A DNA stretch of 64,000 nucleotides from Mucilaginibacter straminoryzae (GTDB lineage Bacteria; Bacteroidota; Bacteroidia; Sphingobacteriales; Sphingobacteriaceae). Positions 5,089 through 25,278 of this stretch are shown here, one piece after another. The DNA is taken from contig NZ_JALJEJ010000004.1 in the NCBI RefSeq assembly GCF_022953055.1, forward strand, positions 310,001-374,000, read 5' to 3'. The notes beneath the pieces were generated by a model that saw nothing but the letters and a program-made list of their open reading frames with translations, was not told the DNA's origin and did no database searches. The translations under genes and the position numbers were made by a program. Each line of letters opens with the position of its first letter. Within the stretch, counting starts at the first letter, position 1.

Positions 5089-6405
5089 TTATGCTTTTTC
5101 TACTACCCTACGACCGATGCTGTTGTAGTAAAAACCACAATCTTCCATCTTATCCAGATCGTATAGATTACGGCCGTCAAAGATCACTTTGCTTTGAAGG
5201 CCGCTGGTCAGCTGGTCAAAATCAGGTGTTCTGAAAACAGACCATTCGGTAACAATCAACAAAGCATCAGCACCATCTAAAGCCTGGTAAGGATCTTCGG
5301 CATACTTAATTTTATCGCCCAAAAGATTTTTGATGTTAGGCATTGCTTCAGGGTCATAAGCAGTAATAGTTCCGCCTGCGGCAACAATCTCATCAATGAT
5401 ATATAGAGCCGGTGCTTCGCGGATATCGTCTGTTTCCGGTTTGAAAGCTAAGCCCCAAAGTGCAAAATGCTTACCTGCGATATCGCCGTTATAGAATTTC
5501 TTTACTTTCTGAACCAGCACTTTTTTCTGGATCTCGTTAACGCTCATTACAGAGTTCAAGATTTGGAAATCGTACTGATTTTCTTCAGCAGATTTGGCCA
5601 GAGCCTGTACGTCTTTAGGGAAACAGCTACCACCGTAACCGATACCTGCGAATAAGAAACGTTTCCCGATACGCTCATCAGCACCAATACCACGACGAAC
5701 CATGTCCACATCAGCACCCACCAACTCGCACATATTAGCAATCTCATTCATGAAAGAGATTTTAGTAGCCAGAAAAGAGTTGGCTGCGTATTTGGTTAAC
5801 TCAGAAGAACGCTCATCCATGAAGATCACCGGGTTACCTTGGCGAACATAAGGTGCATAAAGCTCACCCATTAATTTACGCGCACGTTCGTCAGTAGTGC
5901 CAACAACCACGCGGTCCGGTTTCATAAAGTCTTCTACGGCTACCCCTTCTCTCAAGAATTCAGGGTTAGAAACCACGGCAAATTCCAGATTTGTTTCTTT
6001 GCTCATTACGGCACGTACTTTATCCGCGGTACCCACCGGAACGGTTGATTTGGTTACAATAACTTTGTACTCTTTAATAATGCCTGCAATATCTTTTGCT
6101 GCACCAAGTACATAGCTCAAATCGGCCGCACCATCACCACCCGGAGGGGTTGGCAACGCCAGGAAAATAATCTTCGCCTCTTCAATAGCCTCTGCAAGGC
6201 TTGTTGTAAAGTGCAATCTTCCCTGGTTAATGTTACGGTGAAATAATTGTTCCAGACCAGGCTCATAAATTGGAAGCTGGCCTTCCTGCATTTTTTTCAC
6301 CTTTTCAACGTTGATATCAACGCAAATTACATTATTGCCTGTTTCTGCTAAACAAGTACCGGTAACCAGGCCTACGTAGCCTGTACCTACAACTGCTATT
6401 TTCAT
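5089..6405 (-). CDS. ugd: UDP-glucose 6-dehydrogenase
   Basis: This enzyme oxidises UDP-glucose twice with NAD to UDP-glucuronate. The 438 residues are the normal length. The N-terminal Rossmann loop GTGYVG (7-12), the acid-box region PTPPGGDGAADLSY, the central helix KYAANSFLATKISFMNE (205-221) and the catalytic cysteine C261 in GYGGSCFPKD are all present. It supplies the substrate of the downstream decarboxylase and possibly glucuronate itself as an acidic sugar. It is 34 bases downstream of fcl in the nucleotide-sugar block. In other bacteria Ugd is activated by the Wzc kinase of the same locus; whether that happens here cannot be told from sequence. Confidence 0.95.
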   Translation of the reverse strand: MKIAVVGTGYVGLVTGTCLAETGNNVICVDINVEKVKKMQEGQLPIYEPGLEQLFHRNINQGRLHFTTSLAEAIEEAKIIFLALPTPPGGDGAADLSYVLGAAKDIAGIIKEYKVIVTKSTVPVGTADKVRAVMSKETNLEFAVVSNPEFLREGVAVEDFMKPDRVVVGTTDERARKLMGELYAPYVRQGNPVIFMDERSSELTKYAANSFLATKISFMNEIANMCELVGADVDMVRRGIGADERIGKRFLFAGIGYGGSCFPKDVQALAKSAEENQYDFQILNSVMSVNEIQKKVLVQKVKKFYNGDIAGKHFALWGLAFKPETDDIREAPALYIIDEIVAAGGTITAYDPEAMPNIKNLLGDKIKYAEDPYQALDGADALLIVTEWSVFRTPDFDQLTSGLQSKVIFDGRNLYDLDKMEDCGFYYNSIGRRVVEKA

Positions 6406-6439
6406 GTTTTGTTAATGTGAGCTTTTAAGTTGTGATGGG

Positions 6440-7384
6440 TTAACTATTTACGGGTTGTTCGTAATGTTTTAAAAAATCCTGATAAGCTAATTGTATGCCT
6501 TCTTCAAGTTCGATGGTATGTTTCCAGCCCTGGCTATGCAATTTAGATACATCCATTAACTTACGCGGCGTACCATCCGGTTTTGTGGTATCAAATTTAA
6601 TCTCTCCCTCAAACCCGATTACTTTTTTAACCAGTTCTGCCAGATCTTTAATGCTGATATCCTCACCAGTACCGATGTTTACCAGGCCGGGTTCGTTATA
6701 ATTCTGCATCAGATAGAAACAAGCTTCTGCCAGATCATCTGCAAAAAGAAATTCGCGTTTAGGCGTTCCGGTTCCCCAGATTGTTACATCTGCCAGGTTA
6801 TTCTGCTTCGCTTCATTGAAACGGCGGATCATTGCCGGCAATACGTGCGAGTTTTGCGGATGGTAATTATCATTATAGCCATACAAGTTGGTAGGCATTA
6901 CTGATATATAGTTGCATCCGTATTGATCGCGGTACGCATCGCACATTTTTATACCGGCAATCTTAGCGATTGCATAGGGTTCGTTCGTGTACTCAAGCGG
7001 GCCTGTCAGTAAATAATCTTCCTTCAATGGCTGTGGCGCCATTTTAGGATAGATACAGCTTGATCCTAAAAACATCAGCTTTTTCACGCCATTACGGTAT
7101 GATGAATCGATGATGTTATTTTGAATCTGCAGGTTATCGTATAAGAATTCTGCGCGATAAGTATTATTGGCAACAATGCCCCCTACTTTCGCAGCGGCAA
7201 GAAAAACGTAATCAGGCTTTTCCTGCGCAAAAAAATCAGCAACAGCCTGCTGGTTTCGCAGATCTAACTCTGACGAAACACGGGTGATAATATTGCTATA
7301 CCCCTCTTTTTGTAACTTACGACAAATAGCAGACCCCACCATTCCCCTATGGCCCGCTACGTAAATTTTGGCATGTTTTTCCAT
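6440..7384 (-). CDS. fcl: GDP-L-fucose synthase
   Basis: This bifunctional epimerase-reductase turns GDP-4-dehydro-6-deoxy-D-mannose into GDP-L-fucose using NADPH. The 314 residues carry the loop GHRGMVGSA (11-19), the catalytic region GSSCIYP (107-113) and the pair Y137/K141 in EPYAIAK. Length and motifs match the WcaG/Fcl family. It begins four bases after the gmd stop, so both steps from GDP-mannose are co-expressed. Confidence 0.95.
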
Positions 7385-9799: not shown

Positions 9800-9966
9800 T
9801 TATTAATCACAACGGTAGTATCCAAGCGAGCATTTAAAATTAATATAAAATTACATAAGAAGTAGCTCATTTTTAATATTTTTTTGCCACTTTATTTACG
9901 ATATTAATATAATCATAATTAACAATGAACCCCATAAGAGTTTAAAGGACTAATAAAATGGAGCCA

Positions 9967-10820: not shown

Positions 10821-11366
10821 TTAAACCCGAGCTGGATTACCTCTAACAATAGTATTCGGTGCCACATTTTTTGTTACCACGCTACAGGCCCCGACGATGG
10901 CGGAGTTTCCGATAGTTACACCTGGTAAAATGAAAGCTCTTGCACCAATAAATGCATTGGATTCAATGATAATCGGCACAGTAATCAGATTTTTTTCTGG
11001 CCGGTCAAAAGCATGCGTGCCTGTGCAGATATAGGCTTCTTGAGCTACGGTTGCTGCTTCATGAATAACGATGGGCCCTAAAGAGTAGATGTTTGTGCGG
11101 TCACCAACAGCAGCTAAGTGGTGCATAGTTAGGTTCCAGGGGATTTGTATTCTGGCTCTTTGATGTACAAATGGTTTACCATAAATATTGGCACCAAACA
11201 TCTTTAGCCAAAATAAACGCCAGGGATTTAAAGGCTTTGGTGTCCAAGAGCAAAATATAACCCAAACATATTCCCACAATAACATTTTCATCCTTTGACC
11301 CACCGTCCAGGGACTATCGTAAGGACTATTTTGAGAATGGATATCAACCTTATCAGCTGGTTTCAT
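10821..11366 (-). CDS. WcaF-like sugar O-acetyltransferase
   Basis: This 181-residue protein belongs to the left-handed beta-helix acyltransferases related to WcaF, which acetylate polysaccharide units from acetyl-CoA. The N-terminal part, with SPWTVGQRMKMLLWEYVW and CSWTPKPLNPWR, is typical of the WcaF group. The C-terminal half has hexapeptide repeats (AVGDRTNIYS, FIGARAFILPGVTIG, AIVGACSVV). A histidine in TGTHAFD is the likely catalytic residue. Its start overlaps the end of the upstream glycosyltransferase by 14 bases, so the genes are coupled. Confidence 0.88.
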   Translation of the reverse strand: MKPADKVDIHSQNSPYDSPWTVGQRMKMLLWEYVWVIFCSWTPKPLNPWRLFWLKMFGANIYGKPFVHQRARIQIPWNLTMHHLAAVGDRTNIYSLGPIVIHEAATVAQEAYICTGTHAFDRPEKNLITVPIIIESNAFIGARAFILPGVTIGNSAIVGACSVVTKNVAPNTIVRGNPARV

Positions 11367-12465
11367 TAAGCATTAATTTAAACTCATTGAGAAATTGCGA
11401 AGCAATTGAGGCCGTAGAGTGGCTAATACGTACTTTAACTGACTCTTCTGCCATTTTCTTTCTAGTTGCAGAATCCTCAAGAAGCGCTTCGATCGCGGCT
11501 TTAAGTAGGTCTACGGCATTCGGCTGTCTATGGTCGAATATAGCACCATTTTTCTGATCTTCTATAAAATCCTTAAAGCAAAGCAAATTGGATACTACAG
11601 GCACACAACCCCATGCCATCGCTTCCAGCGGTGCTAAACCGAAGGTTTCTCCCTTTTCAGCAACAGAAGGGTATACAAAGACGGCGGCATCTGAATAGTA
11701 GCTATTCAATTTTTGAGTATCGTAAACGGGGCCGACAAATTGAACTCTTTCATTAGCTTCAGCCTTTAGCTTATTTAAATATTGCTCTCCGCCACCACCA
11801 GCGCTAACATCTACCGGCCCTACAATCTTTAACACCCAATCTGTATCAATCCCTTTAAATGCTGACAAAAGTAAGTGTAATCCTTTTTCCGGATGAACGC
11901 GACCTACATACAGTATCTCCTTCTTTTTATCCACCAAATCAACCTGATCAATCACCTTAAACGGAAGAGGATTGGGAACAGTTATCACTTTAGAGTGCAA
12001 ATCAGAGCTGAGTTCTGCCTTAATTGCTACAGCCACGGGGGTAGAATTAGCACGAAGTCGTCGAGATTTTTTATAAAACTTCATCTGTCCTTTAGGCATC
12101 CGCTGTACATCAACCATAACACGTTTGTTGAAAGAGGCGGACAGCAATAAAGGAGCCCAAAAGGTGTTCGTCACGATGATATCAGTATCAATCGGGACTT
12201 TCCTTATTGCCCTTCTGGTATAAAAAAGATCAAATATCTTATAGAGTAACCCGGATTCGGGCGCCGAATATCCTTTAACACGATGATACTTTAAGCCGTC
12301 AACGACCTCATCCGAAGCCATTCCTTCATATTGCCTGCAGATCTGAACTACCTCATGACCATTTGCAACAAATTCTTTTGCAAGTGCTATCCACATTTTT
12401 TCAACCGCACCGCCAAGTAAGGTTGGTACCGGTAAAAAAGCGCCGTATATAATTGTGATTTTCAA
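11353..12465 (-). CDS. Family 4 glycosyltransferase with TTG start
   Basis: This is a GT-B glycosyltransferase of 370 residues. The first strand KITIIYGAFLPVPTLLGGAV binds the acceptor side, and the C-terminal half has ILYVGRVHPEKGLHLLLSAF and the E-x7-E motif of GT4 in GETFGLAPLEAMAWG. The start is TTG (12463-12465), because no ATG lies upstream in frame near the natural first strand. The TTG overlaps the TGA stop of the gene upstream, which supports coupling. A broken copy of its first 59 codons is found at 13727-13906. Confidence 0.88.
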   Translation of the reverse strand: MKITIIYGAFLPVPTLLGGAVEKMWIALAKEFVANGHEVVQICRQYEGMASDEVVDGLKYHRVKGYSAPESGLLYKIFDLFYTRRAIRKVPIDTDIIVTNTFWAPLLLSASFNKRVMVDVQRMPKGQMKFYKKSRRLRANSTPVAVAIKAELSSDLHSKVITVPNPLPFKVIDQVDLVDKKKEILYVGRVHPEKGLHLLLSAFKGIDTDWVLKIVGPVDVSAGGGGEQYLNKLKAEANERVQFVGPVYDTQKLNSYYSDAAVFVYPSVAEKGETFGLAPLEAMAWGCVPVVSNLLCFKDFIEDQKNGAIFDHRQPNAVDLLKAAIEALLEDSATRKKMAEESVKVRISHSTASIASQFLNEFKLMLNETS

Positions 12466-13655
12466 GATTCGATTAATTCTTTTATTGCAGTTTTTAACTG
12501 TGTTGCAGCAACCTCAATTTTAAAATACGTTAGATAAGCATTTAGAGCATTTGTTTTTTTTACTTGTTTTTCAGATGCAGTCAAAGTTAGCCATTTTACC
12601 AACAAATCTTTTACGCCATCTAAAGTATCTTCTGCTACTAATCCAGCATCAGATTTCAATATTTCTTTATAAATATTTACCTGGTTGCTAATAAGTACCG
12701 GAGTACTGCATGCTAACGCTTCTACCACCGCGATACCAAAATTCTCTTGATGACTTGGTAATATAAACGCTTCTGCAGAATAAAATGAAGCCCATTTTGC
12801 GTCGTCGGCCAGCATCCCCGGAAAAAAAACACGGTTTACCAATTCGGGTGCGCCATCAACAAGTAATTTCAATTGCTGCCCATAGGGGTGTTCTATGCCC
12901 GGGCCTGCTATCACAAGAAATGGTAAGTCTTTGTTAAGCTTAATTAAGTCAATATAAGCCTGAACCAGTAAATCTACCCCTTTTTTAGGGTGTATACGGC
13001 TCAAAAAAAGAAGATAAGGCTTATTTAACCATTCAAAACCATTATCAGACAGCGTCTTAAAAATCTCATCATTTACTGGCGAAGGTTCCTTTATTCCGTA
13101 ACCAATATTTAATTCTCTTTTAGGATGATAATTTTTAAATGTTTCGCGGGCAAGCAGAAGTTCTGTTTCACAGGTAAAAAGCAGTGCATCAGCTTCATTC
13201 ACTACCTTGTTTTCTACCAAGGCCCAATAAATATTGTTCCTGATAGCTTTCAACTTGCGGCCCTTTGCTTTTTGAAAATAAGGATCGAGCATACCGTGTG
13301 GCATTACAAGCACCTTCGGAACTTTGTCATTTCGCCTTTTAAGTTCACGAATCACCTTATTTACAGCATAGCTGGGGAACAACCATAAACCGTGAATAAT
13401 AACCGCATCAAAACCAGACAGATGGTCCCGTAGCCAGAAAATCAATGCTCTGCTATATTTCAAAGGCCCCTTTCCCGGTCCTAAAGCTGTTATCTTAAAG
13501 CTATCCTTGCCAAGAAAAGGCGCATCAGGCGAATCCAGACTGACTACCTCATGATGATCGCCACTCTTTTGCAGTTCTGGTATTGAATTTCGTACACCTT
13601 GACACGGCCCGCCGCTAGCCGGATCCATACTTGCTATTACGCGTAATACCCTCAT
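12462..13655 (-). CDS. Family 4 glycosyltransferase, duplicate copy A
   Basis: This 397-residue GT-B enzyme has the GT4 signs: VIASMDPASGGPCQGVRNS at the N-terminus, LLFLSRIHPKKGVDLLVQAY for donor binding and the E-x7-E motif in HQENFGIAVVEALACSTP. It is about 93% identical to the gene at 13903, with the same length and no gap; I count about 27 different residues. Residue 88 is His in VIIHGLW, where the other copy has Asn. The two genes lie in a 1441-base tandem repeat. Copy A is followed by the intact next gene, so it is the copy joined to the original downstream neighbour. Confidence 0.9.
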   Translation of the reverse strand: MRVLRVIASMDPASGGPCQGVRNSIPELQKSGDHHEVVSLDSPDAPFLGKDSFKITALGPGKGPLKYSRALIFWLRDHLSGFDAVIIHGLWLFPSYAVNKVIRELKRRNDKVPKVLVMPHGMLDPYFQKAKGRKLKAIRNNIYWALVENKVVNEADALLFTCETELLLARETFKNYHPKRELNIGYGIKEPSPVNDEIFKTLSDNGFEWLNKPYLLFLSRIHPKKGVDLLVQAYIDLIKLNKDLPFLVIAGPGIEHPYGQQLKLLVDGAPELVNRVFFPGMLADDAKWASFYSAEAFILPSHQENFGIAVVEALACSTPVLISNQVNIYKEILKSDAGLVAEDTLDGVKDLLVKWLTLTASEKQVKKTNALNAYLTYFKIEVAATQLKTAIKELIES

Positions 13656-13726
13656 AAAAGTTCCTTCATAGTTAAGATGTGCATTTAACTACTCTATCAT
13701 CTACCGAGTAACCTTTAACACAATGA

Positions 13727-13906
13727 TTAAATTAATCCGTCAATAACCTCATTCGAGGCCATTCCTTCATATTGCCTGCAGATCTGAACTACCTCATGAC
13801 CATTTGCAACAAATTCTTTTGCAAGCGCGAGCCACATTTTTTCAACTGCACCGCCAAGTAAGATTGGTACCGTTAAAAAAGCGCCGAATATGATTGTGAT
13901 TTTCAA
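13727..13906 (-). pseudogene. Orphan 5' fragment of the 11353 glycosyltransferase gene
   Basis: This stretch reads, from a TTG start, 59 residues close to the N-terminus of the 11353 glycosyltransferase (KITIIFGAFLTVPILLGGAV and so on through QICRQYEGMASNEV), then stops at TAA (13727-13729). The rest of the gene is missing. It sits just after duplicate copy B, in the place the full gene has after copy A. It is the scar of a tandem duplication whose breakpoint lay inside the 11353 gene. It is probably not functional. Confidence 0.88.
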
Positions 13907-15096
13907 GATTCGATTAATTCTTTTATTGCATTTTTCAACTGTGTTGCAGCAACCTCAATTTTAAAATAGGTTAGATAAGCATTTAGAGCATTTGCTTTTT
14001 TTGCTTGTTTTTCAGATGCAGTCAAAGTTAACCATTTTACCAACAAATCTTCTACCCCATCCAAAGTATCTTCTGCCACTAACCCGGCATCAGATTTCAA
14101 TATTTCTTTATAAATATTTACCTGGTTGCTAATAAGTGCCGGAGTACTGCATGCTAACGCTTCTACCACCGCGATACCAAAATTCTCTTGATGACTTGGT
14201 AATATAAACGCTTCTGCACGATAAAATGAAGCCCATTTTGCGTCCCCGGCCAGCATCCCCGGAAAAAAAACACGGTTTGTCAATTCGGGTGCACCATCAA
14301 CAAGTAATTTCAATTGCCGCCCATAGGGTTGTTCTATGCCCGGGCCAGCTATCACAAGAAATGGTAAGTCATTGTTAAGTTTAATTAAGTCAATGTAAGC
14401 CTGAACCAGTAAATCTACCCCCTTTTTGGGGTGTATACGGCTTAAAAAAAGAAGATATGGCTTATTTAACCATTCAAAACCATTATCAGACAGCGTCCTA
14501 AAAACCTCATCATTTGCTTGCGGAGGTTCCTTTATTCCGTAACCAACGTTTAATTCCCTTTTGGGATGATAATTTTTAAATGTTTCCCGGGCAAGCAGAA
14601 GTTCTGTTTCACAGGTAAAAAGTAGTGCATCAGCTTCATTCACCACCTTATTTTCTACCAACGCCCAGTAAATATTATTCCTGATAGCTTTCAACTTGCG
14701 GCCCTTTGCCTTTTGAAAATAAGGATCAAGCATACCGTGTGGCATTACAAGAACCCGCGGAACTTTGCCATTTCGCTTTTTAAGTTCACGAATCACCTTA
14801 TTTACAGCATAGCTGGGGAACAACCATAAACCGTTAATAATGACCGCATCAAAACCAGACAGATGGTCCCGTAGCCAAAAAATCAATGCTCTGTTAAATT
14901 TCAGAGGCCCTTTTCCCGGCCCTAAGGCTGTTATTTTAAAACTATCCTTTCCGAGAAAAGGCGCATCAGGCGAATCCAGGCTGACTACCTCATGATGATC
15001 GCCACTCTTTTGCAGTTCTGGTATTGAATTTCGTAAACCTTGACAAGTCCCGCCGCTAGCTGGGTCCATACTTGCGATCACGTATAACACTTTCAT
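13903..15096 (-). CDS. Family 4 glycosyltransferase, duplicate copy B
   Basis: This is the second copy of the 12462 gene, also 397 residues and about 93% identical. It keeps the GT4 E-x7-E motif (HQENFGIAVVEALA) and the donor-binding LSRIHPKKGVDLL. It differs at residue 88 (Asn in VIINGLW instead of His) and in a cluster at KEPPQANDEVFR. Its start lies 41 bases inside the 3' end of the upstream glycosyltransferase. The two copies may have different acceptors, or one may be decaying; both frames are open. Confidence 0.9.
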   Translation of the reverse strand: MKVLYVIASMDPASGGTCQGLRNSIPELQKSGDHHEVVSLDSPDAPFLGKDSFKITALGPGKGPLKFNRALIFWLRDHLSGFDAVIINGLWLFPSYAVNKVIRELKKRNGKVPRVLVMPHGMLDPYFQKAKGRKLKAIRNNIYWALVENKVVNEADALLFTCETELLLARETFKNYHPKRELNVGYGIKEPPQANDEVFRTLSDNGFEWLNKPYLLFLSRIHPKKGVDLLVQAYIDLIKLNNDLPFLVIAGPGIEQPYGRQLKLLVDGAPELTNRVFFPGMLAGDAKWASFYRAEAFILPSHQENFGIAVVEALACSTPALISNQVNIYKEILKSDAGLVAEDTLDGVEDLLVKWLTLTASEKQAKKANALNAYLTYFKIEVAATQLKNAIKELIES

Positions 15097-16270
15097 AAAA
15101 TTGCTTATCGGCTAAAATATTTTGGTATGCTTGTTCTACAAGATTAAGTGCTTGATCTAGGTCGAATTTTTTGATATTCAGATATCCGGAATTGATAATT
15201 GCTTCCCTTGCTTCCACTGACAGATTGACTGTCTCTTGCAAAACCTTAGCAGCAATTTTCAGCCATTCCCGCAACTCAGCCGTATCGTGAGGCATCTTAG
15301 GTATATAGGACGCTGCTATTCCGCCTACTTCAGTCATAGGGGCTTCATTAGTTGTAATAACAGGGCATCCTGAAGCCATTGCTTCTGCAATAGGCCAACC
15401 AAATCCTTCTGCAAGGGAAGGGAATAAAAACAGTGTTGCTCCAGCATATGCATTTTGAACAAAATCATCACCTTTCCCAACCAGGAAATAGATGTCTTCA
15501 CTGTAATCAGACGCGCTTGCTTCTTCCAATAAACCGGCTGTAGGTGCAGCTCCGATAAGCAATAATGGGAGACGTTGCTGATACTGCGCACGCCACTCCT
15601 TATATATTTTCACAACCCCTACCCTGTTTTTATACCATTGGTTCCCCCCTACATGTAACAGATAGCCATTGCTGACATCAATACCGGTTTCCGCCTGAAT
15701 AGACTGTCTGACCCTCTGAGGTTGCAACGGTTGAAAACCGGAATTAAGCCCGTTATAAATTACTGTTGAGAATCGGGGCTTCCGGTTTAAGAAAAATAGT
15801 AAATCCTGCTCTGTTTTTTTTGATACCGAAATAAAATTCTGCCCACGCTTGTAACCGTTCCTAATGAATTCCTGGTACTTACGCCCGGTGATTCCGGTTA
15901 CATTTTCGGGTATCTCTCCCATCGCAGAGCGCTGAGCTAAAAAATCGTGACAATGAATCACGTGAGGACGGTCAGCTACCAAAGGTACCCAAGGGCCTAA
16001 TGCATGATCGGTAAAAACATACAAAGTGTCAACAGGCTGTTGTTTTAGCGCTTTTCTAACTTTGAGCGGGAATGCGATAAACTGATCAAGATAACCCATC
16101 CATTTTTTTAGTTTATCCGGAACAGGCGCCTTATAAAAAAAAGCCTCGGGGTTCCATAGCTCAACCTCGTGCCCTTTGCCCTTCATTCCTTCGGCTAGCA
16201 TTGTCGCAAAGCGGGGCATACTTTGAGAGTTTAAGAAAGCTGGATGGGTAAAAAAAACAATTCTCATCAA
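15056..16270 (-). CDS. Family 4 glycosyltransferase
   Basis: This 404-residue GT-B enzyme has the acceptor half beginning MRIVFFTHPAFLNSQSMPRF, the donor half with GYLLHVGGNQWYKNR and the E-x7-E motif in LAEGFGWPIAEAMASGCP. The last 13 residues are encoded inside the start of the next gene (41-base overlap). It is 8 bases after the glycosyltransferase upstream. Substrate is unknown. The MRIVFF start is preferred over one more Met just before it, because it begins the first strand directly. Confidence 0.9.
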   Translation of the reverse strand: MMRIVFFTHPAFLNSQSMPRFATMLAEGMKGKGHEVELWNPEAFFYKAPVPDKLKKWMGYLDQFIAFPLKVRKALKQQPVDTLYVFTDHALGPWVPLVADRPHVIHCHDFLAQRSAMGEIPENVTGITGRKYQEFIRNGYKRGQNFISVSKKTEQDLLFFLNRKPRFSTVIYNGLNSGFQPLQPQRVRQSIQAETGIDVSNGYLLHVGGNQWYKNRVGVVKIYKEWRAQYQQRLPLLLIGAAPTAGLLEEASASDYSEDIYFLVGKGDDFVQNAYAGATLFLFPSLAEGFGWPIAEAMASGCPVITTNEAPMTEVGGIAASYIPKMPHDTAELREWLKIAAKVLQETVNLSVEAREAIINSGYLNIKKFDLDQALNLVEQAYQNILADKQFYESVIRDRKYGPS

Positions 16271-21756: not shown

Positions 21757-22704
21757 TCACTTTGAATAAAACCTATTCACTATTAAAGACACTTTAAGAT
21801 CAACGTATTTAAAAAAAACTTTTGTTTTAGGATATAAATTGATAGGATACTTAACGTTCTTCCAAAATTGCTTTTCCGAAAGCGAAGCTCTTCTACCCTT
21901 TAATGCCTGCAAAAAGAACGATACCTTCCAAGGTTTAGGTTTTCCGGTTGCGTGCGACATTAGCCATCCCCCGCCAATAAAGTCCATTCCTTCAGGTCCA
22001 ATTTCACTGATTGGTTCTTTACAACACATCGCGCAGATATTTAATGCATCTTGATCACCCATATGAAATTCATTTGACGGATCATTTTTGTTGTCAAGAT
22101 AATTCATATCCATTCCAAAACTACTCATCGCGATTTTTATGATCTCATCCCATGTTTTTAAAAATTGTAAGCGATCACTTGAAACCCCACAAAAGCCAGC
22201 ATTTATATAGTGATACAATTCTCTCTCCACTTTAAGATTTAGAGCGTTTATTACCTTTTGCCACGCAAATCTTTTTGGATGAGTTGGTGGAAAATCCGAG
22301 CTTACAATCTCATGAACTAAAGTTATACCATATTGAATCCAATTTTCATAAAATTCCCATTTGCACCTTACAACAATATCCGGATCAAAATAGAAAATTC
22401 CACTTGCATCATTAGCGTAATCACTCATTAAAAGCAACATGAATTGCGGCTTGTAATTGGTGAAATGGTAATTGGTTTCTATCAAAATAAAATGGACCAG
22501 CAATCCTTCAGCTACCTCAACTGATTTCGAAATCTTTCCCGAAGGCCATACCTTTTCCGTTACCGCCCTTGCCCAAAAAGGTAATTCACCTTTATATCCA
22601 ATAAAAAAATCACCTCTGAAACCACTTTTGTAAAGCGAATTGACTAAGGCTCCTCCGCCATAATGATAATGTCCTTCAAAAAGGGTACAAACAACTGATG
22701 ACAT
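21757..22704 (-). CDS. Putative GT-A glycosyltransferase, paralogue 2
   Basis: I do not recognise a named family with certainty. The 315-residue protein shows a GT-A-like arrangement: an N-terminal TLFEGHYHYGGGALVNSLYK segment like GT8-type nucleotide-sugar enzymes, and FYFDPDIVV with a DxD metal site at 107-109. A later YHYINAGFCGVS segment fits the acceptor region of such enzymes. It is a paralogue of the 22994 gene: the first 40 residues are close, and the rest is diverged. It lies downstream of a broken wzx fragment, which shows it arose by duplication. Confidence 0.72.
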   Translation of the reverse strand: MSSVVCTLFEGHYHYGGGALVNSLYKSGFRGDFFIGYKGELPFWARAVTEKVWPSGKISKSVEVAEGLLVHFILIETNYHFTNYKPQFMLLLMSDYANDASGIFYFDPDIVVRCKWEFYENWIQYGITLVHEIVSSDFPPTHPKRFAWQKVINALNLKVERELYHYINAGFCGVSSDRLQFLKTWDEIIKIAMSSFGMDMNYLDNKNDPSNEFHMGDQDALNICAMCCKEPISEIGPEGMDFIGGGWLMSHATGKPKPWKVSFFLQALKGRRASLSEKQFWKNVKYPINLYPKTKVFFKYVDLKVSLIVNRFYSK

Positions 22705-22706
22705 AT

Positions 22707-22893
22707 TTAGTAATTAACGTTATCAAACTTAAACAGCCTATAACAAGTGTACAAAACATGTATAAGCGCTTGACCCGTGCTATAAAACAATTGAATTACA
22801 AAACCTTTGTAACTGTTTTTAAGTGAAACAGCAAGGCTCCGAAATAATAGATAGAATATTAAAGGCACAGAAATAACCGATTAATAATCCATC
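22707..22893 (-). pseudogene. Broken 3' fragment of the flippase gene
   Basis: This stretch matches the last 60 or so codons of the Wzx-like gene at 23980, including the identical end HVLYTCYR and FDNVNY followed by TAA. It has a one-base deletion and an in-frame stop relative to the intact gene, so it cannot be translated as such. It lies directly upstream of the 21757 gene, as the intact wzx end lies upstream of the 22994 gene. It is the scar of the second duplication. Confidence 0.85.
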
Positions 22894-22993
22894 TTATAAT
22901 TGGTACCAACGGAGGCAATAAGCATGTTTTCCTATGATATCAATATTTTTAAGAACAAATAAATTACATTCTCATTTTTAAACTGGTATAGCA

Positions 22994-23977
22994 TTAGCTA
23001 TTTCCATAAAACCTTCCGACAAAAGCAGCTATTTTCAACTCAAATTGCCTAAACTTAATCAACCCAAGTTTGTAAGGTCTAATTGGACCACTTAAATTTT
23101 CCCAAAACAACCTATCAACTACCCGTAAACGTTGCCCTTTAAGTGCTCGAACTATGGGACTACTAACCCATGGTTTTTGCGTACCTAGTGCATGCGGTAG
23201 AATTGCAGCTCCATGCTTGAAAGCCATAGCCTCTTGCCCTATATAACTAATGGGTCTATTCCAAACTTCAGTTGTTATATTCAAAGCGTCTTGATCAGTT
23301 TTGCTGAAAGGCGCAAAATCGCCTTGAGCCTCCTTAGCTAACTGTCCTCCATTTTTAAATATGGATTTATCTAACCCTCCAATATACAAAGACATATGTT
23401 CTTGAATAGACTTCCAATTTTCTAGAAAGTGAAAATCAGCTTTAGAAACACCAATAAACCCCCCATTTACATAGATAGACGTTTTAAACTTCAACTCAAT
23501 TTTATATTGGCTAAATAATCGTCTCCAAGCCACTCTACGTGGATGATACTCTGATATGGGAGAGTTTACGTCCTCACACAAAGCAACACCACATTGTATC
23601 CATTCCAAAAAGTAATACCATGGACCTGATATTACGATATCTGGATCGAAATAAAACAAACCATCTGCACTTTTTGCGGGGCCTTGTAATAACCTAAGCA
23701 TAAAGTCTGGTTTATAGTTAGTAAGGTGATAGTCAGTAGTCAGTGGTAAAAAATATATTCTTAGATCGCTAGTCACCTCTACCGAAGTTACGTTTTGCCA
23801 CTCAAAGAAATTACTAATATTGCGAACATCGTTATAGTTATTTACCCATTTTGGCAATTGCCCCCTATATCCAACATAAAAATCTCCCTTATACCCCTGC
23901 TTATAAAGTGAATTAACAAGAGCTGATACTCCATAATGATAATGTCCTTCAAAAAGGGTGCAAACAGCTGATGACAT
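22994..23977 (-). CDS. Putative GT-A glycosyltransferase, paralogue 1
   Basis: This 327-residue protein is the paralogue of the 21757 gene. It starts MSSAVCTLFEGHYHYGVSAL, has FYFDPDIV with a DxD site at 111-113, and a SIYVNGGFIGVSKADF segment for the acceptor region. It follows the flippase gene by only two bases, so it is co-translated with it. An insert near residues 190-215 distinguishes it from its paralogue. Family membership is inferred from the DxD site and the locus. Confidence 0.72.
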   Translation of the reverse strand: MSSAVCTLFEGHYHYGVSALVNSLYKQGYKGDFYVGYRGQLPKWVNNYNDVRNISNFFEWQNVTSVEVTSDLRIYFLPLTTDYHLTNYKPDFMLRLLQGPAKSADGLFYFDPDIVISGPWYYFLEWIQCGVALCEDVNSPISEYHPRRVAWRRLFSQYKIELKFKTSIYVNGGFIGVSKADFHFLENWKSIQEHMSLYIGGLDKSIFKNGGQLAKEAQGDFAPFSKTDQDALNITTEVWNRPISYIGQEAMAFKHGAAILPHALGTQKPWVSSPIVRALKGQRLRVVDRLFWENLSGPIRPYKLGLIKFRQFELKIAAFVGRFYGNS

Positions 23978-23979
23978 AT

Positions 23980-25278
23980 TTAGTAATTAACGTTATCAAA
24001 CTTAACAAGCCTGTAACAAGTGTACAAAACGTGCATAAGCACTTGTACAAGCGCTATAAAGCAATTGAAATGCAAAACCTCCGTGAGCGTTGTTACGTGA
24101 AACAGCAAGGCCCCAAAAACAATAGATAGAATGTTTATAGGTATAGAAATAACAGGATTAATAACCCATCCCCGGCTTGTCGCTAATCCAAAACATATGC
24201 CTGACATTATACTTAAACAGGCAGCAATAACACTGTAAAACAACTCATTCTTTAAATTGGAATAAGACTTTCCCAGTATCCATAATATTTGCGTCGGAAA
24301 AACACCGGAAACACCTACAACTACAAGTAAAATAACGCTTACTCCAATAAGTAATTGAAAATAATATCGTGTGAGTACAGCCTTATTATCAGGCAGTCTA
24401 GAAAATCTTGGAATAATCAAAGTGCTAAAAAGTACATTAAACAACGACAGCACCATGCTCAAACGGCTTAATGCACCTATTTGAGCGATATTATTTGTAT
24501 TTCCAAAAATAGATAACAGCCAAATGGATATTTGTCCGGATACGCAATAATATATCGCGCCAGGTAAAATACGCTTGACAACTGCTAGTATTTCTTTTCT
24601 AACCTCTGGATCAGATTTCTGATTCCAATCCACATATTTTGCAGTGAGTTTTTTTAATTTGATATTACCTAAGATACGAGGTATCCCGGCTGTGATAATG
24701 CCTACTGCAGCAAAAGGAGCTAGAAAGGTCGCGAAAACTAGGATCATCCGGAAAATGCCGACCCAAACTTGGTTTTTTTGCAGCGAAGTGATATCCTGCC
24801 TCAACTTTAATCCCACTTCAAGCAATGAGTCCGATAACGCAGCTATAAATGCCGGTATCAAAGATAGTATTATTATGGTGCTTTGTAACCAACTGGCCCC
24901 ATGCTGTACCAGGAGGTAAAACAAAACCGGTATAGCAACTATCAAACTAAAAATAGCAAACTTTTTTCGCAGGTTAAGGCCCGTAACCATTATCACTCCC
25001 AATTTGGTGTTATCCTGCCAAACCTTCCCGCCCTGAGCCATTACCCCTGCACTAATACCACCATCAGATAAAACTGTCATTGTACCAAGCATCGTATTAA
25101 CAAGGGTATATAAAGCGTATTCTGCTGTTGATAAAAATCTTATTATAACTATACCGCTTACTAAACTTACACCTTGAACAATGATTTGCGCAGTTCCAGT
25201 TATTGTAATTAGCTTAAACCAATGAATTAACTTGTCGAGTTTGTTTTTTGAGGAAGCTGCCGTGTCTACTGCACTCAT
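23980..25278 (-). CDS. Wzx-like polysaccharide flippase
   Basis: This protein of 432 residues moves lipid-linked repeat units across the inner membrane. It has about twelve hydrophobic segments, an N-terminal TGTAQIIVQGVSLVSGIVII like the MATE/MOP-type Wzx proteins, and no signal peptide. It lies between the Wzc gene (13 bases upstream) and the paralogue glycosyltransferase (2 bases downstream). A degenerate copy of its 3' end lies at 22707-22893. Confidence 0.88.
   Translation of the reverse strand: MSAVDTAASSKNKLDKLIHWFKLITITGTAQIIVQGVSLVSGIVIIRFLSTAEYALYTLVNTMLGTMTVLSDGGISAGVMAQGGKVWQDNTKLGVIMVTGLNLRKKFAIFSLIVAIPVLFYLLVQHGASWLQSTIIILSLIPAFIAALSDSLLEVGLKLRQDITSLQKNQVWVGIFRMILVFATFLAPFAAVGIITAGIPRILGNIKLKKLTAKYVDWNQKSDPEVRKEILAVVKRILPGAIYYCVSGQISIWLLSIFGNTNNIAQIGALSRLSMVLSLFNVLFSTLIIPRFSRLPDNKAVLTRYYFQLLIGVSVILLVVVGVSGVFPTQILWILGKSYSNLKNELFYSVIAACLSIMSGICFGLATSRGWVINPVISIPINILSIVFGALLFHVTTLTEVLHFNCFIALVQVLMHVLYTCYRLVKFDNVNY

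Follow-up and report, generated by a model that had tools for sequence, protein, structure and literature searches.

Tandem duplication of a GT4 glycosyltransferase gene with a scar of its neighbour in an exopolysaccharide cluster of Mucilaginibacter straminoryzae

The cluster and its repeated segment

The window analysed here is the whole 64,000-nucleotide stretch at positions 310001-374000 of contig NZ_JALJEJ010000004.1 of M. straminoryzae, whose genome amounts to 4.76 Mb in 25 contigs. An exopolysaccharide cluster occupies the minus strand from about 5 to 28 kb of the window. Its genes encode a UDP-glucose/GDP-mannose dehydrogenase, an epimerase and a GDP-mannose 4,6-dehydratase, together with several GT4 and GT2 glycosyltransferases, hexapeptide acetyltransferases, a Wzz/AAA protein and a polysaccharide-export protein. 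A WcaI-family glycosyltransferase in the cluster scores above the cut-off of that family. The proteins encoded from 23980 and from 17442 gave no match in a Pfam search; our guess, from their position and hydrophobic look, is that they might be the flippase and the polymerase.

Four genes of the cluster, which we call A, X, X' and B, each encode a GT4-type protein by Pfam (Table 1). X and X' were originally predicted to be equally long, shifted by 1441 bases and about 93% identical in protein, and all of this was borne out: the coordinates of the two reading frames were confirmed, and 370 of 397 residues are identical, with 27 positions differing. At a shift of 1441 the ungapped part of the direct repeat contains 95 differences in 1373 bases. 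A gapped local alignment matches 12264-13666 with 13704-15106, with single-base gaps beside 12287/13728 and near 13660/15101; beyond 12287/13728 the homology goes on at a shift of 1440 to 12264/13704. At the other end clear homology is lost some 5 bases before the start codon of X. Scanned at shift 1441 in 50-base windows, the sequence has 41-50 identical bases throughout 12300-13649, against 8-21 of 50 outside the repeat (windows 11900-12299 and 13650-15399). Base differences between X and X' number 14, 17 and 48 at the first, second and third codon positions, respectively. Because the copies diverge at about 7% of their bases, an assembly duplicate is ruled out, and length together with identity rules out chance similarity. 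The segment is thus confirmed as a tandem duplication, two adjacent direct copies at a similarity well above chance.

Table 1. Genes, repeat copies and scars in the exopolysaccharide cluster (window coordinates)
Feature	Position	Strand	Basis or remark
Gene A, GT4-type glycosyltransferase, upstream of X	15056..16270	-	Pfam
X, GT4 glycosyltransferase, A-proximal copy, 397 aa, intact	13903..15096	-	E-x7-E at residue 304
Orphan 5' fragment of gene B, ~66 codons homologous	13704..13906	-	frameshift and stop after codon 59
48-base stretch from B fragment to X' start, no source identified	13656..13703	-	alignments
X', GT4 glycosyltransferase, B-proximal copy, 397 aa, intact	12462..13655	-	E-x7-E at residue 304
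Gene B, intact GT4-type glycosyltransferase, 4-base overlap with X' end	11353..12465	-	Pfam
Hexapeptide-repeat acetyltransferase, WcaF-like but below family cut-off	10821..11366	-	after B in relatives too
Repeat copy 1, ungapped part	12288..13660	.	identity at shift 1441
Repeat copy 2, ungapped part	13729..15101	.	identity at shift 1441
Second scar, decayed remnant of the 3' part of the 23980-25278 gene, flanked by the second pair	22705..22893	-	
Second pair, type I protein, 315 aa, no Pfam match	21757..22704	-	
Second pair, type II protein, 327 aa, no Pfam match	22994..23977	-	

Both proteins match the Pfam families Glycos_transf_1 (89.5 bits for X' and 88.1 for X; cut-off 26.4) and Glyco_trans_4_4 (36.7 and 31.1 bits; cut-off 29.7), and both retain an E-x7-E, which we take to be the GT4 glycosyltransferase motif. 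The predicted model of X has a GT-B fold (mean pLDDT 93.3, pTM 0.90), and its closest solved folds in a Foldseek search are GT4 enzymes. The sequence of X alone matched no solved structure at E<=1e-8; a 40-sequence profile matched 53 distinct sequences of solved structures, the best being 5i45 at 4.6e-15. By Pfam, motif and the fold of the X model, X and X' are predicted to be retaining GT4 glycosyltransferases of the GT-B type. The X model shares its fold with MshA (3c48), PimB' (3oka) and BshA (6d9t), at 14-19% sequence identity, so no substrate can be transferred from these enzymes. The top NCBIfam model for both copies is HpsP (NF038295), a GT4 glycosyltransferase of hormogonium polysaccharide; their scores of 153.2 and 144.3 bits lie far under its curated cut-off of 550, and we rejected the two as HpsP equivalogs. 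X and X' are probably translated within one operon and, judging from their family and neighbourhood, would each add a sugar to the lipid-linked repeat unit.

The fragment of gene B and the junctions of the repeat

Besides X, the repeated unit contains the beginning of gene B. The orphan frame at 13727-13906 had been interpreted as the first 59 codons of the gene at 11353-12465. The identification with the start of B held, and the length did not: homology runs past the stop, so that some 66 codons of B belong to the unit. Over 198 aligned bases the fragment matches the intact gene at 180, and a single base has been inserted close to the new stop. The B homology in the repeat marks a breakpoint inside B. 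The divergence of the fragment from B (18 of 198 bases) is not clearly higher than that between X and X' (79 of 1194), and the 7 amino-acid differences in the fragment, set against 8 B outgroups, are too few to place the changes or to judge neutrality.

A clean duplication predicts that the B fragment joins the upstream sequence of X' with no extra bases. What we found is that the end of copy 1 does not run straight onto the start of copy 2, a stretch of 48 bases lying between them. Compared with the end of A, the continuation of B and the rest of the window, these 48 bases matched no better than shuffled sequence (p from 0.20 to 0.99), and in the window's own genome their best match besides themselves had an E value of 1.24. 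They include GAAGGAA, which by eye resembles a ribosome-binding site, and the bases before X resemble only the last 4-5 of them. Since the 48 bases match neither A nor B, the event was not a clean two-breakpoint duplication. The stretch can be read in three ways: as filler at the join, as sequence native to the region upstream of X and afterwards deleted before the A-proximal copy, or as upstream sequence that X' brought along from another strain. The unusual overlap of A with X supports the second of these. A and X share 41 bases (15056-15096), made up of the last 13 codons and the stop of A. In 24 relative loci where A lies next to X, two of which belong to one genome, the spacing ranges from -26 to +84; the window's -41 falls outside this range, as fits a later deletion before X.

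Single-copy relatives and constraint on the two copies

The order that had been inferred for the ancestor, a single X between A and B, can be seen in present-day genomes. Contiguous A-X-B with one X occurs in six of 95 related loci, three of the six in the same genus, and five of the six have the hexapeptide gene directly after B; a B homologue stands beside a single X in eight of the 95. Apart from the three same-genus loci just mentioned, the 95 consist of 80 that come from named genomes and a further 12 of the genus, and some share genomes (L069 and L152, for instance). At E<=1e-60, B homologues were present in four of 149 genus genomes, namely the window's own and three others, each with one X in the order A-X-B-hexapeptide. 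This direct view in relatives supports the inferred ancestor, though at just 53-58% protein identity.

X itself is present in 44 of the 149 genus genomes at E<=1e-80, the window's included, and the remaining 43 showed no tandem X pair at this cut-off. In the family, 56 of 301 genomes carry X at E<=1e-60. More than one X match was found in six genus genomes, adjacent only in the window's and on different contigs in the other five, as also in two family genomes; in all these counts several assemblies are fragmented, and a copy scoring under the cut-offs would escape notice. In Euzebyella marina, a member of another order, two X homologues lie about 4.3 kb apart (6001-7158 and 11449-12609 of its locus). 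Independent best hits for X and X', which would have spoken against a duplication, did not appear. The two are sisters with a support of 1.0, on a long stem (0.54), and their nearest other relative in the 149 genus and 301 family genomes has 58% protein identity, too distant to display the sequence before duplication.

Selection between X and X' was estimated as had been proposed. The dN/dS ratio was 0.16 by NG86 (bootstrap 0.10-0.26), 0.25 by YN00 and 0.21 by maximum likelihood. Given an origin in place, a ratio of about 0.5 or more is expected if one copy was unconstrained from the start; the lower values therefore mean that both copies are constrained, provided that they arose in place. Had they diverged in separate strains, the ratio would be uninformative about the time since the join. 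The dS of 0.16-0.21 means either that the event is old or that the copies had already diverged when they came together.

That one copy is on its way to becoming a pseudogene, which would make the pair transient, is very improbable. Each copy does show changes at residues that are common in relatives, X at 5, 17, 67 and 320 and X' at 192 and 284. Against such decay stand the intact frames, the range of dN/dS given above and the behaviour of conserved columns: at 80 columns conserved to at least 95% in 113 orthologues, X and X' depart at two each, one of them shared, within the range of the orthologues themselves (mean 0.93, maximum 6). Where the two proteins differ, at 27 residues, X' agrees with the commoner choice among 114 orthologues 17 times and X ten times, and the branch of X' is the shorter (0.028 versus 0.050 for X). 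Neither copy looks decayed.

The differences are not spread quite evenly along the repeat. At the X-start edge (13601-13660 against 15042-15101) 12 of 60 bases differ, about three times the 6.1% of the interior; a permutation test of this edge alone gave p = 0.0004. Codons 1-20 include 8 that differ, against 64 of the remaining 377 (p = 0.015), and dS is 0.29 in codons 1-200 versus 0.14 in codons 201-397. An older duplication whose interior was homogenised by gene conversion, with edges that keep the older divergence, would leave such a pattern; we nevertheless find this explanation unlikely. A scan over all 60-base windows gave p = 0.076 for the edge excess, the opposite edge differs at 7 of 60 bases, and the longest identical run in the repeat, 80 bases, is ordinary (p = 0.24). 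Moreover, the start of X overlaps the end of A, which could alter the constraint there. Gene conversion may have acted whether the pair arose in place or was brought together.

A second pair in the cluster and the origin of X and X'

About 7 kb upstream in the operon, at 21757-24170, lies a second tandem pair of related genes, whose type I and type II proteins are identical at 134 of 311 aligned residues (43%). The two genes are separated by a frameshifted 3' piece of the gene at 23980. An alignment of 84% (263 of 312 bases) to that gene takes in the scar and continues into the beginning of the type I gene; past this stretch nucleotide identity between types I and II drops to 40-63% per 25 codons. 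The dead fragment is better conserved than the genes it separates, and so cannot stem from a simple duplication with later drift. The 100 bases beside this scar, with p = 0.096 against the whole 23980 gene and 0.044 against its last 500 bases, only suggest that the scar is longer. Elsewhere the operon is tight except for a 167-base intergenic gap at 9800-9966, where no coding remnant was recognised; considered as a third scar, it was rejected, its matches being no better than those of shuffles (p = 0.98).

Genes matching the second pair at E<=1e-25 occur in 19 of the 149 genus genomes, again counting the window's. We compared 16 of the 18 other loci, leaving out G324 and G366, the latter with two matches on different contigs (39% and 34%). 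By score eight of the 16 are type I and eight are type II, and none has both, although the loci are not independent, as they include near-identical groups of two (L203/L204) and four (L200/L201/L202/L210). In five of them type I stands directly behind the 23980 homologue. In a tree, a split with support 1.0 separates all type II sequences, among them the window's 22994 gene, from type I; the 21757 gene of the window falls with type I, its exact place having a support of only 0.27. The second pair is better read as two otherwise alternative gene types that would have been brought together. In their first 25 codons the window's type I and type II genes share 63 of 75 bases, compared with at most 58 with any of the 16, so that local duplication or conversion may have occurred at the gene start.

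For X and X', the original prediction of a duplication with a breakpoint inside B fared unevenly: the breakpoint is real, while copying in place is challenged by the 48 bases, by the dS and by the second pair. Three circumstances weaken it, namely that the 48 bases have no source, that no close relative is at hand and that the second pair did not arise in place. In addition, a long-dead fragment should be clearly more diverged than X, and the B fragment is not. We still consider it slightly more probable than not that X and the start of B were duplicated in tandem within the locus. Starting from the order A-X-B seen in relatives, the segment of X plus the first ~66 codons of B would have been duplicated in tandem, and the join of B at codon ~66 to sequence before X left the dead fragment that is present today. 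The 48 bases would then be filler, or a segment from upstream of X that was later lost before the other copy. Both X copies stayed intact, and if they arose in place they would have done so under purifying selection. The putative benefit of the second copy is most likely gene dosage or a sister step with a shifted acceptor or donor preference.

There is a lesser yet appreciable chance that the pair was assembled from two strains, X', the 48 bases and B of a related strain having been joined behind the resident A-X. One unequal recombination would have cut the resident B after ~66 codons, and most of the 7% divergence would predate the join. A single event of this kind would explain the fragment of B, the divergence and the 48 bases as foreign sequence, and homology ends almost at the start of X, as if the donor had another gene upstream. 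The same cluster also offers a clearer case in types I and II, which at 43% identity flank the decayed piece of the 23980 gene, fall across the split with support 1.0 and occur singly in the 16 relative loci. However, X and X' are mutual nearest relatives among all genomes searched, and no donor-like locus nearer to X' than to X was found in the 149 genus genomes, the 301 family genomes or a wider contig scan that may omit records very near the window's genome. The similar divergences of fragment from B and of X from X' fit both models alike. For X and X' we favour duplication within the locus.

A broader proposal would be that the cluster grows by stacking alternative gene versions at one position and has done so twice, an arriving version being placed next to the resident one through unequal recombination via a shared neighbour, which was truncated. 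We consider this doubtful, as we do its corollary that the 5' piece of B and the 3' piece of the 23980 gene are the scars of those two events.

LgtB and LgtE of the Neisseria lgt locus are related glycosyltransferases adjacent to each other in a surface-sugar locus, of another transferase family than that of X and X'. Our literature search on glycosyltransferase duplication and Mucilaginibacter exopolysaccharide found no report of the X/X' locus. PssG and PssI of Rhizobium leguminosarum bv. trifolii are homologous glycosyltransferases of one exopolysaccharide cluster; their authors think that they originated by duplication, and complementary functions were shown for them (PMC9961541). Unlike X and X', which are 93% identical proteins of the GT-B/GT4 type, PssG and PssI have a GT-A fold and are 68% identical, and the available part of that paper mentions no neighbour fragment of the kind that accompanies X and X'. 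By analogy with PssG and PssI, as described there, paralogous transferases in one cluster may serve complementary steps.

In conclusion, the duplication of X with its neighbour scar is real, well resolved and ordinary in kind. The way in which a polysaccharide cluster acquires a transferase can be read from it, with both breakpoints, the dead piece of the neighbour and the single-copy ancestor all visible. Of more interest than X and X' alone is that the same anatomy recurs within one cluster. Copying in place and stacking are hard to tell apart after the copies have diverged; if both pairs share a mechanism, neighbour scars would be a signature that separates the two. Were stacking to prove true, such scars could be used to find allele stacking across polysaccharide loci.
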